DNA of 64,000 nt from Thiobacillus sp. 0-1251 (GTDB lineage Bacteria; Pseudomonadota; Gammaproteobacteria; Burkholderiales; Thiobacillaceae): positions 794,718-858,717 of the forward strand of contig MKWL01000001.1 in NCBI GenBank assembly GCA_001899305.1, given 5' to 3'. Shown piece after piece: positions 27,029 through 54,124 of the stretch. Below the pieces are notes generated by a model. The model was not told the origin of the DNA, made no database searches, and saw only the letters and a list, made by a program, of their open reading frames with translations. Each line of letters starts with the position of its first letter. The stretch's first letter is position 1. Made by a program: the position numbers and the translations under genes.

Positions 27029-27118
27029 AGTTGCAAGATTCAAGTTGCAAGACGCAAGACAGAGTGTGTGGTGAAGCCACTCGCCCCGTTCTTGTGACTT
27101 GCAACTTGTACTTGAACC
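27029..27118. repeat. heptad-repeat locus E (two inverted arms, no gene inside)
   Basis: Left arm at 27029-27063 reads as seven-base units of the type AGNNNCA (AGTTGCA, AGATTCA, AGTTGCA, AGACGCA). Right arm at 27092-27118 reads TTGTGAC, TTGCAAC, TTGTACT. CAAGTTGCAAG (27041-27051) and CTTGCAACTTG (27098-27108) are perfect inverses, so a hairpin can form. The arms belong to the same AACTTG-type family as the locus at 35400-35890. Confidence 0.85.
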
Positions 27119-27127
27119 TGCTTCCTT

Positions 27128-35399: not shown

Positions 35400-35434
35400 G
35401 TTACAAGGAGCAAGTTACAAGTTTCAAGGAGGGA
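35400..35434. repeat. heptad array, left arm of unit A
   Basis: Five seven-base units in exact register: GTTACAA, GGAGCAA, GTTACAA, GTTTCAA, GGAGGGA. It starts five bases after the gmd stop. The last unit supplies the Shine-Dalgarno (AAGGAGG) and the A of the start codon of the four-helix-bundle gene. Confidence 0.9.
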
Positions 35435-35790
35435 TGGTGGCCCGGTTTGAAGATCTCGCGGTTTGGAAGCGATCGGCTCGGTTGAGTGCAGAGCTTTATA
35501 AATCGTTGAGAGAACTCAAGGACTTCGGGTTTCGCGATCAGATCACGCGGGCCGGGCTGTCGATCCCTTCCAATATTGCCGAAAGTTATGAACGTGAGTC
35601 GGCAAAGGAAATGACGAATTTCTTGAATTACGCGAAGGGTTCGGCAGGCGAATTGAGAACCCAGCTGTACATAGGAATGGACATCGGCTACATCGAACGC
35701 GAAGCGGGCATGCAATGGATCAAGGAAGCTGAAGAAATCTCCCGCATGCTTCATGGGTTGATGCAGACGATACGAACACAAAAAACTTGA
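35434..35790 (+). CDS. four-helix-bundle protein (23S rRNA IVP/Avd-like family), unit A
   Basis: 118 residues. [18 protein letters not shown], then [24 protein letters not shown] and [16 protein letters not shown] are the conserved positions of the small four-helix-bundle family known from 23S rRNA intervening sequences and from Avd of diversity-generating retroelements. The biochemical role of stand-alone members is unsettled. It has no metabolic link to gmd and fcl, which it separates. Heptad arrays flank it on both sides (35400-35434 and 35796-35890). A GTG at 35437 is an alternative start with better SD spacing. Confidence 0.9.
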
Positions 35791-35795
35791 GGAAC

Positions 35796-35890
35796 AAGCT
35801 GCAAGTTTCAAGTCGCATGAGCGGCGTTTGTAACTTGAAACTTGTAGCTCGAAACTTGCAGCTTAGGACTTGTAACTTGAAACTCGATTC
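35796..35890. repeat. heptad array, right arm of unit A
   Basis: AAGCTGC, AAGTTTC, AAGTCGC (35796-35816) are followed after a spacer by nine units in exact 7-bp register at 35828-35890 of consensus TTGNARC (TTGTAAC, TTGAAAC, TTGTAGC, TCGAAAC and so on). CTTGAAACTTGTAGC here is the inverse of the left-arm sequence GTTACAAGTTTCAAG with one mismatch. The TTG start of fcl (35877) is the first codon of the eighth unit. Confidence 0.9.
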
Positions 35891-42596: not shown

Positions 42597-44539
42597 AGCT
42601 CGCCTTGCTACTCTTTTTTTCCAGCTTGGCTTGTGTGGTCGGGATATCTGCCGCCCAAGCCGGACCGACGGACGATCCGTATGCCGCTTATAAATACAGT
42701 CGCGATATGCCGCAGTCTGTCGAGGACTGGGTGCTTGCGCGAAGCAGGATGGATGCCGATCCGGCCTGGAAAAAATGGGTGGATTCCGAGCGAGTTCGCC
42801 TGCAGCGCTGGCAGGCGCGCGGCGGCGATCACCCCGACTGGGTGGCCGGGTACATGCACGACTATTTCGATCCGGCAACCCTCAAGGAAATGCAGTGGAC
42901 GGAAGACACGCCCCTGCCACCGACAGGCTTGCCAGGCACACCCGAGGCAAAGCGCTTCGGCGGCTGGGTTTTTTATTTCCGCACACGCAATGCGTCCTAT
43001 GTATTGCTTGCCGCACGCCTCTTCAAGCTGACGGGTGACCGGCAGGCGCTCGATTGGGCACGCAGTCAGATCGACCTGTATACCCGCCAGTATTCGCGAT
43101 GGCCTATGCAGACGCGCGCGGGAAGCAAGACGCGCCTGATGAGCAGCAGCCTCGACGAAGCCCAGGTAATGGTGATGCTGGTTCCAGCCATCCGTCTGAT
43201 TCAGGCAGATGTGCCTGCTAAAGAACTGGCGAGATGGAAGTCCAATCTGATCGTACCGTCAGCCCGCAATCTGCTCGACAGCTTCAATGGTTTCAACAAT
43301 ATTTCCGTCTGGCAGCGCGGTGCGGTCGCCAGCATGGCACTGTTGCTGAATGACTCGGCTTTGTGGCACGAGGCGGTGTGGGGCGATCGGGGCGTAGCGG
43401 CCATCCTGCGTGCCGCGACGACCCGCGACGGCCTCTGGAACGAGGGCACATTCGGCTACAGCGAATATGTGGTGTATGCCCTGCTGCCTTTCCTGCACGA
43501 GGCAGCAGTCTATGGCAAACAGAATGAAGTGGAGCCCATCCGGCAGGCTGCACATAACCTTCTGGTCGCGCCGCTTGCCCTGCGCTTTCCCGATGGCACG
43601 TTGCCCAACCCCGGCGACAATCGGGGTGAGCCGATGGCGTTCAATCGCTATCTGTTGCGCGAAGCAGCCTATCTGTTGCCGACGCAGGTGGGTGTTGTCG
43701 AATGGCTGTCGGCGAAAACCTGGCCACGGCTGTATGTCGACTGGAATCCGGAAATATCCGCCCCTGCGCCTTTACCCCTTGAATCACGCCGTATGGATGA
43801 CACGGGTTTCGCCATGCTGCGGCATCAAGGCTGGCATCTGTTTCTGCATTTTGGCCAGGCCTCGCGCAACCATGCGCAATACGAGGCACTTTCGTTCGAG
43901 CTGCATCATGACCAGGGTCGTATCGTGACCGACCTGGGAACGACGGTTTATAGCAGTCCGCTGCATCAGAATTATTTCACCCGTGCCGCCGCTCACAACG
44001 TGCCCATTATCGATGATCGGGGCCAATACCGGTTTACCCTGGGCCAGTTGCTCAGCTTTGAGCCCGCGCTTGGGCGCATGTCGGCACAGCAACCGGACTA
44101 TCAGCCGGGTGTGTCGGTTACGCGTCAATTCATGCTGGATGCACAAAGCGTTACCGATGTCATCGAGGTGAACCGCAGCCAGGCTCCTGACGGGACGATA
44201 GGCACCATCCTGCATATGGATTGCGATCTTGCATTGCCGAAGCTCCAGGGCGCAACACGGCCGAGTCTGCCTGCCGAGTCAGGATTTGGCTACTGGAAAC
44301 AAACAGGGACCTACCGCTTACCAGCTCGTTTCGAATTCAATGCTACCTGCGGAACCATGGTGTTGAGCGTCCAGGTTGAGGGACCGGCCGAGGGGGTCAT
44401 GCTCGTGGGCAAGCCGCCGGTACTCGACAAGCGGAACAGATCTGCAATCTATGTTCGCTATCCTGTTAGCCAAGGGCGAATCCAGACCATGTATACGCTG
44501 GTTGGGCCAGTGCAGGCGGGCGCGGCCGCAATGGAGTGA
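42584..44539 (+). CDS. heparinase II/III-type polysaccharide lyase with alginate-lyase-like domain
   Basis: 651 residues. Signal peptide to about residue 27 (ISAAQA), an alpha-toroid alginate_lyase-like domain (about 60-380, including RNASYVLLAARLFKLTGDRQALDWAR and FNNISVWQRGAVASMALLL), then a heparinase II/III C-terminal beta domain (HLFLHFGQASRNHAQYEALSFELHHDQGRIVTDLG). It would cleave uronic-acid-containing chains in the periplasm. Its presence suits a polymer with an acidic sugar, which the UDP-sugar dehydrogenase at 48887 could supply. Confidence 0.87.
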   Translation: MAHLKLALLLFFSSLACVVGISAAQAGPTDDPYAAYKYSRDMPQSVEDWVLARSRMDADPAWKKWVDSERVRLQRWQARGGDHPDWVAGYMHDYFDPATLKEMQWTEDTPLPPTGLPGTPEAKRFGGWVFYFRTRNASYVLLAARLFKLTGDRQALDWARSQIDLYTRQYSRWPMQTRAGSKTRLMSSSLDEAQVMVMLVPAIRLIQADVPAKELARWKSNLIVPSARNLLDSFNGFNNISVWQRGAVASMALLLNDSALWHEAVWGDRGVAAILRAATTRDGLWNEGTFGYSEYVVYALLPFLHEAAVYGKQNEVEPIRQAAHNLLVAPLALRFPDGTLPNPGDNRGEPMAFNRYLLREAAYLLPTQVGVVEWLSAKTWPRLYVDWNPEISAPAPLPLESRRMDDTGFAMLRHQGWHLFLHFGQASRNHAQYEALSFELHHDQGRIVTDLGTTVYSSPLHQNYFTRAAAHNVPIIDDRGQYRFTLGQLLSFEPALGRMSAQQPDYQPGVSVTRQFMLDAQSVTDVIEVNRSQAPDGTIGTILHMDCDLALPKLQGATRPSLPAESGFGYWKQTGTYRLPARFEFNATCGTMVLSVQVEGPAEGVMLVGKPPVLDKRNRSAIYVRYPVSQGRIQTMYTLVGPVQAGAAAME

Positions 44540-50190: not shown

Positions 50191-51270
50191 GTGATATTCG
50201 TGACAGGCGGTGCCGGCTTCATCGGTGCGAACTTCATTCTGGACTGGCTGCGGGTCAACGATGAGCCGGTCGTCAATCTCGACAAGCTCACGTACGCGGG
50301 CAACCTGGAGAACCTGGCCAGTCTGAAAGGCGATCCGCGCCATGTCTTCGTGCAGGGCGACATCGGTGACCGTGCGCTGGTCGGCCAATTGCTGAGCCAG
50401 CATCGCCCACGCGCGATCGTCAATTTTGCCGCCGAGTCGCATGTCGACCGTTCGATCCACGGCCCGGAAGACTTCATCCAGACCAACGTGGTGGGGACGT
50501 TTCATTTGCTGGAGGAGGTGCGCGGCCACTGGATGGGCCTGGCGGAAGCGGAGAAAGCTGCGTTCCGATTCCTGCATGTGTCCACCGACGAGGTCTACGG
50601 TTCGCTGGGACCTGACGATGCGCCGTTCACCGAGACCACGCCGTTTGCCCCCAACAGTCCGTATTCGGCCAGCAAGGCGTCGTCCGACCATCTGGTGCGG
50701 GCGTATCACCACACGTATGGCTTGCCGGTGTTGACGACCAATTGCTCGAACAATTACGGTCCCTATCAGTTTCCTGAAAAGTTGATCCCGCTGATGATCC
50801 TCAACGCCACCCGCGGCAAGCCGCTGCCAATCTACGGCGACGGCATGAACGTGCGCGACTGGCTGTACGTCACCGATCACTGTTCGGCGATCCGGACCGT
50901 GCTGGAAAAAGGAAGATCGGGCGAGACCTACAACGTCGGCGGCTGGAACGAGATGCCGAACATCGAGATCGTGAAAACGGTATGCGCGCTACTCGACGAG
51001 ATGCGTCCCGATTCTGCCGGGCCGTATGCGCGCCTGCTCACCTATGTGAAGGACCGTCCTGGCCACGACCGCCGCTACGCCATCGACGCCAGCAAGATCC
51101 ATCGCGAACTCGGCTGGAAGCCGGCCGAGACCTTCGAGACCGGCATCCGCAAGACCGTGCGCTGGTATCTGGACAATATGGCGTGGGTGGAGCATGTGGC
51201 GAGTGGGGAATATCGGAGGTGGGTGGATGTGCAGTATGGTGAGCGGGGAGCAGTAAGCGGTGAGCGGTAA
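50191..51270 (+). CDS. rfbB: dTDP-glucose 4,6-dehydratase
   Basis: 359 residues. [18 protein letters not shown] (NAD site), [10 protein letters not shown] and [22 protein letters not shown] (catalytic Tyr-Lys) are diagnostic of RfbB. It performs the second step of dTDP-L-rhamnose synthesis. The last eleven residues, [11 protein letters not shown], are encoded by the left arm of a heptad-repeat array and do not belong to the family, so the native C-terminus was replaced or extended. Confidence 0.95.
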
Positions 51271-51272
51271 GC
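51238..51272. repeat. heptad array, left arm of unit B
   Basis: Five units in exact 7-bp register: GGTGAGC, GGGGAGC, AGTAAGC, GGTGAGC, GGTAAGC. They encode the end of rfbB and overlap the GTG start of the four-helix-bundle gene. Confidence 0.92.
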
Positions 51273-51622
51273 CCCACGAGCGGCTCGAGGCGTGGAAAAG
51301 TGCGATGGAATTGGTCGAGGTGGTTTATCGGATCACTGCGACTTTTCCGGCACAGGAACAGTACGGTTTGGTGTCGCAGATGCGCCGTGCTGCGGTTTCC
51401 ATACCGAGTAATCTGGCTGAGGGCGCTGCTCGGGATGGAAGCCGCGAATTCACCCGGTTTCTCAGCATTGCTCGGGGTTCGTTAAGTGAATTGGATACCC
51501 AACATCAAATTGCCATCCGACTCGGATTTGTGAGATCAGATGAAAACCAGGTCGAGCCCTTGCTTGAAAGAACGAGCAAACTGATTTTTGGCCTGCACAA
51601 AAAAATGAAAGAGACCGAATGA
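51260..51622 (+). CDS. four-helix-bundle protein (23S rRNA IVP/Avd-like family), unit B
   Basis: 120 residues from a GTG at 51260 that lies inside the heptad array. [45 protein letters not shown] and [19 protein letters not shown] are the conserved blocks of the same family as the protein at 35434, including SIPSN(I/L)AE, yet the two are clearly diverged. It separates rfbB from rfbA and overlaps both (rfbB by 11 bases, rfbA by ATGA). Heptad arms in inverted orientation flank it (51238-51272 and 51640-51667). Function unknown. Confidence 0.9.
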
Positions 51623-52542
51623 CCATGCAACCCCCAACCGCTCCCCGCTCCCCGCTCACCTCTCCCAGAAAAGGCATCATCCTCGCCGGTGGCTCCGGCA
51701 CCCGTCTGTATCCGGCGACGCTTGCCGTATCCAAGCAGCTGCTGCCGATTTACGACAAGCCGATGATCTATTACCCGCTCACTACGCTGATGCAGGCAGG
51801 GATTCGGGACATATTGGTCATTTCGACGCCTCAGGATACGCCGCGTTTCGAGCAGTTGCTGGGCGACGGCAGCCAGTGGGGCGTCAATCTGCAGTATGCG
51901 GTACAGCCTGATCCGGAAGGGCTTGCCCAGGCGTTCATCATCGGTGCGGATTTTGTGGGGAACGGTCCCAGTGCGCTGGTGCTGGGCGACAATATTTTCT
52001 ATGGCCATGACATGGCGAAAGACCTGTGTGCGGCGAGCGAACGGGAAACCGGCGCGACGGTGTTTGCTTATCGTGTGCACGACCCGGAACGTTATGGCGT
52101 GGTGGACTTCGATGCCACAGGAAAGGCGGTCAGCCTGGAAGAAAAACCCGCCCGGCCCAAATCGCATTACGCAGTCACCGGGCTTTATTTCTATGACAAG
52201 CAGGTGGTCGACATTGCCCGCAACCTGAAGCCCTCGCCGAGAGGCGAACTGGAGATCACCGACGTCAACCGGCACTATCTTGACGCGGGCGAGCTCGATG
52301 TGTCGATCATGGGGCGTGGGCATGCCTGGCTGGATACGGGTACCCACGAATCGATGCTCGAAGCTTCGCTGTTCATCGAAACGATCGAGAAACGCCAGGG
52401 CCTGAAGATCGCCTGTCCGGAGGAAATCGCCTATCGGCAGGGATATATCACAGCCGAGCAGGTGGAGAAGTTGGCTGCACCCATGCGGAAGAATGGGTAT
52501 GGGCAGTATTTGCTGAATATGTTGAATGAACGGATTTTTTGA
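51619..52542 (+). CDS. rfbA: glucose-1-phosphate thymidylyltransferase
   Basis: 307 residues. [37 protein letters not shown] is the nucleotidyltransferase signature of RfbA. It forms dTDP-glucose for rfbB. The first 16 or so residues ([16 protein letters not shown]) precede the normal family start and are encoded by the right arm of the heptad array, so translation now starts at the ATG overlapping the four-helix-bundle stop. Confidence 0.95.
51640..51667. repeat. heptad array, right arm of unit B
   Basis: GCTCCCC, GCTCCCC, GCTCACC, TCTCCCA in register; these are inverse complements of the left-arm units GGGGAGC and GGTGAGC. The array lies inside the 5' end of rfbA. Confidence 0.92.
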
Positions 52543-52545
52543 AAT

Positions 52546-52657
52546 GGGGAGCAGGGAGCGGTGAGCAGTAAGCTGAAACCGCTCCCCGCTCCCCGCTCCC
52601 CGCTCACTGCTCACTGCTCACTGCTCTCCACTCACCACTCACCACTCACCACTCACC
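52546..52657. repeat. heptad array C: 16 units in exact register, no gene inside
   Basis: Four units of the GGGGAGC/GGTGAGC type (52546-52573), one spacer unit TGAAACC, then eleven inverted-type units: GCTCCCC x3, GCTCACT x3, GCTCTCC, ACTCACC x4. It fills the whole rfbA-rfbC gap and can fold as a hairpin because the two halves are complementary. Confidence 0.95.
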
Positions 52658-52661
52658 TAAA

Positions 52662-53204: not shown

Positions 53205-54124
53205 CGCCTGCTCCCCGCTCCCCGCTCCCCGCTCACCGCATTCTCCTCACCGGCGCCCGTGGCCAGGTCGGCTGGGAGCTGCGGCGTACGCTCGGTTGCC
53301 TGGGCGAGGTGGTCGCACTGGATTCGCGGGCCATGAATCTGGCCCATGCCGATGCGGTGCGCCGGACGGTACGTGACATTGCGCCGGGCATCATCGTCAA
53401 CCCGGCTGCCTATACCGCGGTGGACAAGGCCGAGAGCGAGCCGGAGCTGGCGCATGCGGTGAACGCCGTTGCACCAGGCATCCTGGCCGAAGAGGCGGCC
53501 CGGCTGAACGCGTTGCTGGTGCATTACTCCACCGACTATGTGTTCAATGGCAGTGGCGGCACGCCCTGGAAAGAGGACGCCGCCTGCGATCCGCTCAATG
53601 TGTATGGCGCAAGCAAGCTGGCGGGCGAACGCGCCATCGGGGCAACCGGCTGTCGACATCTCATTTTCCGCACGTCCTGGGTGTACGGTGCGCGCGGCAG
53701 CAATTTCCTGCTGACCATGCGCCGCCTGATGCGGGAGCGGCCGGAACTGAAGATCGTCGCCGACCAGGTCGGGGCGCCGACCTGGTGCCGCGACCTGGCC
53801 GAAGCGACGGCCTTGGTCTTGAGTCAGGTCGCCGCGCCCATGTCAGCCGCGAATCAAGCCGAGCCCTGGGGTATCTATCACATGAGCAATGGCGGCGAGA
53901 CCTCGTGGCACGGCTTCGCAGAGGCGATCCAGTCGCTCGATGAATTCGACGAGACCTGGGTGCCGGGCCGGCTGATTCCGATCCCGAGCAGCGATTACCC
54001 GACCCCGGCAACACGCCCGCTCAATTCACGACTGAACAACGACAAGCTTGAACAGACGTTCGGTATACGACTGCAGGATTGGCGCGCGGCGCTGGCGCTG
54101 TGCCTGGAGACAGACGGTAAGTAA
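53201..54124 (+). CDS. rfbD: dTDP-4-dehydrorhamnose reductase
   Basis: 307 residues from ATG 53201 overlapping rfb[19 protein letters not shown] (NADPH site), [11 protein letters not shown] and [14 protein letters not shown] (Tyr-Lys) define RfbD, the last step to dTDP-L-rhamnose. Residues 2-12 ([11 protein letters not shown]) are encoded by a heptad array (53210-53237) inserted right behind the start codon and precede the usual N-terminus. Confidence 0.94.
53210..53237. repeat. heptad array D, one arm within the rfbD start region
   Basis: GCTCCCC x3 and GCTCACC in exact register, in the coding frame of rfbD. Confidence 0.9.

Follow-up and report, generated by a model that had tools for sequence, protein, structure and literature searches.

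The window, a stretch of 64,000 nucleotides from a Thiobacillus genome (G000), carries two small genes for four-helix-bundle (FHB, PF05635) proteins, each bracketed by arrays of 7-bp units of which the right array is the reverse complement of the left (Table 1). The best explanation, held with a probability of about 0.6, is that these units are free-standing relatives of the 23S rRNA intervening sequence, in which an FHB gene lies between complementary arrays of 7-bp, sometimes 8-bp, repeats, and which would be mobile among operon spacers and processed in the manner of intervening sequences. Comparison of sequences demonstrates the architecture of the unit, its recurrence across phyla and within 23S rRNA, the occurrence of filled and empty sites, the tracking of the protein by the arms, and purifying selection on the protein. 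The initial annotation had proposed a possible undescribed mobile unit between gmd and fcl, and this now appears largely right, the units being widespread and their sites filled in some genomes and empty in others.

Table 1. FHB genes, their heptad arms and gene-less heptad places in the window
Feature	Position	Strand	Remarks
Solo inverted heptad pair	27030-27125	+	Gene-less; left part about 27030-27060 (array score 10), inverted right part about 27094-27125, read by eye
Unit A, left arm	35400-35430	+	Degenerate heptads GTTACAA, GGAGCAA, GTTACAA, GTTTCAA
Unit A, FHB (23S_rRNA_IVP) gene	35434-35790	+	118 aa; PF05635, TIGR02436, AlphaFold2
Unit A, right arm	about 35792-35885	+	A stretch in the orientation of the left arm, then inverted heptads TTGTAAC/TTGAAAC
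Unit B, left arm	51238-51272	+	GGTGAGC-type heptads; codes for the C-terminal end of rmlB and its stop; overlaps the FHB start
Unit B, FHB gene	51260-51622	+	120 aa; GTG start; PF05635, E 2.2e-34; stop overlaps an rmlA start (ATGA)
Unit B, right arm	51632-51666	+	CCGCTCC/GCTCACC heptads
Solo inverted heptad pair, rmlA-rmlC gap	52547-52657	+	Gene-less; unit B heptads; RNA fold 52540-52660, z -5.9
Single heptad array, rmlC-rmlD junction	53207-53239	+	Unit B heptads; without FHB gene

In profile searches, the protein of unit A, which is inserted between gmd and fcl, matches PF05635 with an E-value of 4.9e-33 and TIGR02436 with 2.8e-32. The bracketing of this IVP/Avd-like gene by heptad arrays of the GTTACAA type on the left and of the TTGTAAC/TTGAAAC type on the right was confirmed, as was the presence of both orientations in the right arm. 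Because of these two orientations, the local score of the left arm is 13 against the reversed right side and likewise 13 in direct orientation. Neither arm reaches the cut-off of 9 at lag 7, both passing at lag 14 only, and the left array is absent from the output of Tandem Repeats Finder for the window; the evidence for the period from unit A taken alone is weak. Where relatives have an empty gap, fcl shows an ATG that is missing here, and its reading frame is open back through the right array. The recurrence of the architecture at 51238-51667, between rmlB and rmlA, held up, with another heptad (GGTGAGC/GCTCCCC) and a protein that is 31-32% identical to that of unit A. If rmlA starts at 51619, the right arm of unit B forms an in-frame N-terminal extension of RmlA.

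When the window was scanned at lags 4-30, segments scoring at least 12 were found only at lags 7 (three), 14 (four), 21 (one) and 28 (two), the lag-21 segment being perhaps an unrelated 21-bp repeat at 43648. Chance is excluded for period 7 across the window as a whole. At the same score, 463 kb of G000 contained 11 period-7 segments, one of which is an arm of unit B, and two genomes without FHB genes contained none in 200 kb each. The idea that FHB-bearing genomes are generally enriched in solo arrays was considered and rejected, with 3 versus 2 segments (score of at least 11) in ten versus ten genomes over 400 kb each. Paired occurrences of the GGTGAGN pattern number 19 in all of G000, versus 10 for the reversed control, which is a weak difference. 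A CCTCACC-type heptad array of G000 (L372, 12065-12091) lies within a long open frame near pdhB-aceF and perhaps codes for a linker.

The association of FHB genes with heptads is family-wide. A pool of 119 units was assembled after exclusion of those with less than 160 bp before or less than 120 bp after the gene, and open frames of at least 90 codons in the same loci served as controls. Period-7 arrays were present on both sides of 52 of the 119 units, as compared with 6 of the 154 control genes (Fisher 3e-16), and complementary arms in 70/119 and 6/154 (Fisher 2e-25); the strict threshold for two-sided arrays was missed by 67 of the units. An excess of heptads over neighbouring genes, which the initial annotation had suggested looking for around homologues, is thereby established. 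Among 36 genomes of the genus searched for the family, 24 have at least one FHB gene, and G000 carries a third besides those of units A and B.

Scanning of named genomes yielded at least 573 relatives, the best 80 of which were taken as loci and are hence biased towards similarity. They span Pseudomonadota, Bacteroidota, Verrucomicrobiota, Planctomycetota, Bacillota, Acidobacteriota and others. Period-7 segments occurred within 220 bp upstream of the gene in 45/80 and downstream in 40/80, versus 61 of 1514 windows elsewhere in these loci. Periods 4-6 and 9-13 were found in at most 3/80, and period 8 in 6/80 and 8/80, so that some arrays are made of octads. Of 398 genomes in a second draw across the phylum, 62 had a match, and the best 30 loci by score had period-7 arrays upstream in 18/30 and downstream in 20/30. 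That arms are universal in PF05635 was rejected: 14 units of divergent branches had both arrays in 5 cases and complementary arms in 7. In one clostridial genome (G090, L274-L277), divergent FHB genes without arms occur alongside armed units, two of them in tandem in L274.

The family also extends to plasmids and viral contigs. Among named cyanobacterial plasmids, 29 records had a match, of which six were read; five of these have two-sided period-7 arrays (two being nearly identical) and the sixth has octads. Their sites are cas6-cas4, cmr2-cmr3, a gap between an AAA ATPase gene and parB, and nrdB-nrdA, the latter in antisense; two of the units (L436 and L438) thus sit within CRISPR-Cas operons, at cas6-cas4 and cmr2-cmr3. 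The two arrays of L436 share one orientation, and an inverted stretch is found further upstream. Viral contigs yielded 22 relatives, with both arms above threshold in 10, and the protein of unit B was without match in 50,697 phage records at an E-value of 1e-5.

The sequence of the arms is matched within units and free between them. The left arm scored at least 12 against the reversed right arm of the same unit in 65 of the 109 units with enough flank, as compared with 2.4% of pairs from different loci and 9/109 in direct orientation. In genomes with several units (G087, G082, G085), the heptads were found by reading to differ mostly from one unit to the next. The arrays had initially been taken as the ends of the unit; the paired complementary arms stand, but with a sequence this free they are not fixed ends. 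Upstream arrays are G-rich (G exceeds C in 53/63, C exceeds G in 6/63) and downstream arrays C-rich (45/56, versus 8/56 for the opposite), and the polarity of the arms is therefore fixed relative to the gene. The RNA folds predicted for units A and B have z-scores of -4.1 each.

Arms matched better within a unit than across species in 16/19 at pdhB-aceF and in 4/7, 4/5, 2/3 and 1/3 at four other sites, an excess that is not uniform. For the pdhB-aceF arms, 24 rows were reduced to 22 by dropping two without an arm anchor, leaving 14 distinct rows; 93.9% of the positions pair, a value reached by none of 1000 shuffles of the right arms, for which the figure is 89.0%. Compensatory change in these arms was rejected, as double-change pairs (7/27) did not exceed those of the shuffles and further pair types were fewer than in the shuffles. 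Slippage inside the arms and copying from one to the other may preserve their likeness; alternatively, the arms may be rewritten whenever the unit moves.

The protein of unit A is predicted by AlphaFold2 with a pLDDT of 96. Its best structural match is 2gsc (Xcc0516 of Xanthomonas), with a TM-score of 0.86, followed by 2rld (BT_0352) and then by Avd (4dwl). The match to 4dwl, with a TM-score of 0.77, a Foldseek E-value of 0.018 and an identity of about 14%, is weaker than those to 2gsc and 2rld. The Avd fold was recognized, chains of 4dwl and 8ub7 both being matched with TM-scores of about 0.75. Xcc0516 is reported to be a homopentamer (PMC4990558). The FHB protein is under purifying selection, with a median dN/dS of 0.05-0.10 at four sites.

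Within the genus, units occupy five shared sites, pdhB-aceF, yebC-ruvC, rmlB-rmlA, gmd-fcl and guaB-guaA, the gene names outside the window being taken from reading of the protein ends. Occupancy was counted at the first four by reading the printed gaps in the best 30 loci per search of 56 genomes. At gmd-fcl, three loci contain the FHB gene, a plain gap of 17 bp is seen in 13, three retain only a stretch resembling the right arm (one of these scars has no gmd match in its locus), and the remaining 11 contain a different insert, run into a contig end or lack an adjacent gmd. At rmlB-rmlA, five are filled, 21 have plain 17-bp gaps (six of them at rmlA copies that are 78-80% identical and perhaps a second locus), three have arm-like ends without a detectable FHB gene and one is unpaired. 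At yebC-ruvC, seven are filled, 16 have plain gaps of 13-14 bp and seven contain other genes. At pdhB-aceF, 15 are filled, eight hold gene-less heptad hairpins, six have other spacers, one is unpaired and no plain short gap was seen. In the filled and empty pair formed by G000 and G060 at yebC-ruvC, the flanks are 91% and 96% identical, and the unit substitutes for the spacer from the yebC stop to the ruvC start. No target site duplication was seen on reading filled and empty sites at these four places, the G000/G060 pair included. Heptads that were rare around homologues, or a gmd-fcl gap occupied in every strain, had been named at the outset as results that would speak against a mobile unit; heptads proved to be common around homologues, and empty gmd-fcl sites do exist in relatives.

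Some of these gaps hold other material. In other genomes of the genus, at L118 (944-1492) and also at L125, an ORF6N-domain gene (PF10543, E 1e-34 for L118) without heptad arms occupies the gmd-fcl gap, which therefore accepts unrelated inserts. The seven yebC-ruvC loci with other small genes (L150, L151, L153, L155, L164, L166 and L172) have inserts of 352-698 bp, and these genes resemble toxin-antitoxin pairs by eye. In four of the 30 pdhB-aceF loci (L179, L188, L189 and L198), the gap contains gene-less hairpins with a repeat of about 9-10 bp, of the GCGAAGGAC type. Two gmd-fcl scars (L114 and L134) show a short repeat, of the CCTGAGC..GTCGAAGGGC type, between gmd and the leftover right arm.

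Arms are shared across different sites according to the relatedness of the proteins. At a score of at least 12, sharing was observed in 21% of 179 different-site pairs with a protein identity of 60% or more, 7% of 1360 pairs at 50-60%, 1.7% of 5346 at 40-50%, 1.2% of 6027 at 30-40% and 1.4% of 905 below 30%. Since sharing rises with the closeness of the proteins, the gene and its arrays seem to travel together, which supports the joint spread initially proposed. Close pairs at different sites without shared arms also exist (L059/L078, 79.6%; L056/L253, 77.9%). Two units of one Prevotellaceae genome, 79% identical (L110/L248), align over gene and arms, and the alignment stops at the arm ends; the homology of the pair L084/L089, one unit planctomycete and the other neisserial, stops there likewise. 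With the exception of the array-less pair L275/L276 (90.5%), identity between copies at different sites reaches only about 79-80%, and movement is therefore old or rare in the sample; no unit was caught moving in the sampled genomes. On a FastTree phylogeny of 194 FHB rows, in which resolution is poor (91 of the 190 inner branches are open), 80 units with 15 site labels require 22 changes of site, versus a minimum of 14. By neighbour label, gmd-fcl units fall in five places of the tree, in four of which the fcl start is legible in the sequence. The mobility of FHB-heptad units is strongly suggested by these comparisons.

As to the means of movement, the FHB gene is the sole gene between the arms, Pfam gives PF05635 only, and no transposase was found in the unit. 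No match to the RVT_1 reverse transcriptase was found in G000, and a resident reverse transcriptase is therefore seemingly not required. Movement driven by such an enzyme in the genus was also rejected on its distribution: RVT_1 is present in 18 of 56 genomes and, among the 36 also searched for FHB genes, in 6/24 with and 2/12 without them. Co-orientation with the neighbours was 93/117 on the left and 82/111 on the right, versus 219/311 for controls (p 0.07 and 0.54). Strict operon co-orientation was thus rejected as a signature, being barely above background, and one unit (L435) lies antisense between nrdB and nrdA; both observations weaken the need for operon transcription.

A unit of this kind was found inside 23S rRNA. 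G311, a genome from another genus of the window's family, has two identical FHB genes within 23S rRNA, each flanked by heptad arms left and right; for one of the copies (L333), the match to the bacterial LSU model (1-2921) spans the insert. On this ground, rRNA intervening sequences appear to be the same kind of element as the operon units. The initial annotation had named the IVP family as one known from 23S intervening sequences; the common family stands, and the statement is amended in that the package itself is tied to such a sequence by the G311 insert. With those intervening sequences that carry an open reading frame the window units share the PF05635/S23p protein and a gene placed in the loop of complementary ends, which are predicted to form a stem. 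They differ in lying outside any 23S gene, in protein operons (gmd/fcl, rmlB/rmlA), with the coding frames of the neighbours entering the arms. For the 23S insert of Coxiella, tandem heptamers just before the S23p gene, terminal inverted repeats and cutting by RNase III have been described, in a source that calls unclear how 23S intervening sequences, on record since 1990, arose, spread and function (PMC4990558). Genes of PF05635 are also recorded at cas loci and, in CPR bacteria, within rRNA inserts, in passages that leave heptads unmentioned (PMC3936711, PMC11270868). Among the matches listed in the open literature, a scope outside which most subscription papers and bioRxiv fall, heptads are tied to PF05635 only for the Coxiella insert.

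Other known systems resemble the units in part. Avd of diversity-generating retroelements has the four-helix-bundle fold in common with the FHB protein, whereas the sequence identity is low, as given above, and no reverse transcriptase was detected in the window's genome. Unlike insertion sequences or MITEs with a transposase, the units showed neither a transposase gene nor, at the sites read, a target site duplication. REP/BIME palindromes go with RAYT transposases; there too a gene lies between inverted palindromic repeats and gene-less copies of the repeat are found elsewhere, but the FHB gene is without a Y1 (HUH) transposase domain, and the arms are tandem heptads that vary between units. 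Heptameric repeats without a settled cause have been reported as the GGGAATC type in Xanthomonas and Nostoc, TAACTGA in Beggiatoaceae and GGACCGG in Geobacter (PMC4692102, PMC4679880, PMC2700814). Like the arms, these have a period of 7, are largely intergenic (in Geobacter also inside genes) and, in Xanthomonas, often form inverted pairs; unlike the arms, they are not linked to an FHB gene in the relevant parts of these papers. As to horizontal transfer, the TAACTGA paper states that a mechanism is not evident.

The gene-less inverted heptad pairs of the window and of the rest of G000 might indicate that solo hairpins came first, were spread by something else, and serve as the target into whose loops the FHB gene homes. 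The eight hairpin-bearing pdhB-aceF loci beside 15 filled ones, and the 70-75 inverted heptad pairs per genome reported for Xanthomonas (PMC4692102), agree with such an order of events. It is nevertheless unlikely, since the plain gaps at gmd-fcl, rmlB-rmlA and yebC-ruvC are heptad-free, the arms at different sites track protein relatedness, and the solo heptads at pdhB-aceF are unlike those of the FHB units there. Moreover, the gene has been lost in L114, L134, L214 and L220 while pieces of the arms remain, so that full units can themselves yield solos.

Retention of the unit for the benefit of the host, with the hairpin and the translated gene uncoupling or tuning the operon neighbours and the protein acting as a regulator, would account for the strong purifying selection, for the start and stop codons of neighbours within or overlapping the arms, and for the repeated finding of units in identical operon gaps among unrelated groups (clustering of the neighbours gave 15 units at cysD-cysN, nine at gmd-fcl and six at rmlB-rmlA). 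This seems rather improbable in view of the patchy presence of the units and their clean absence from close relatives, of sites as different as 23S rRNA, nrd operons and cas operons, which share no apparent function, and of the decayed copies at rmlB-rmlA. The units might also be old operon passengers that are not self-mobile and spread only by transfer of whole operons, their arrays remaining alike through slippage and inter-arm copying. Same-site units of the genus do form clades on the FHB tree, and orthologous units persist across many species. Such a history is very improbable given the five separate places of gmd-fcl units on that poorly resolved tree, the related units that a single family (f69) and a single genome (L110/L248) each carry at two sites, and the planctomycete and neisserial units whose homology stops at the arms.

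On the favoured explanation, the unit would lodge in operon spacers, replacing the spacer and often the start of the next gene, and would presumably be expressed with the host operon. Folding models suggest that the arms pair in the transcript into a stem with the gene in its loop. By analogy with 23S inserts, RNase III or a similar enzyme may cut this stem, whereby the host operon would tolerate the insert. The least certain step is that the Avd-like, probably pentameric protein may bind its own stem and aid copying elsewhere with host enzymes. The arm sequence would be free because only pairing matters.

The units represent a real and widespread generalisation of the rRNA intervening sequence that has apparently not been described. 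A bolder reading, held tentatively and at somewhat less than even odds, is that they form their own class of mobile element, without transposase, with matched 7-8 bp arms of free sequence and an Avd-fold protein as sole gene, a class that would include the 23S intervening sequences and some of the heptamer repeats that lack an explanation, as special cases or leftovers. If so, the freedom of the arms together with their match would imply that copying of the unit involves rewriting of each arm from its partner. A heptad-armed package in operon gaps across many phyla offers at least 573 relatives in which its movement and RNA processing may be tested.
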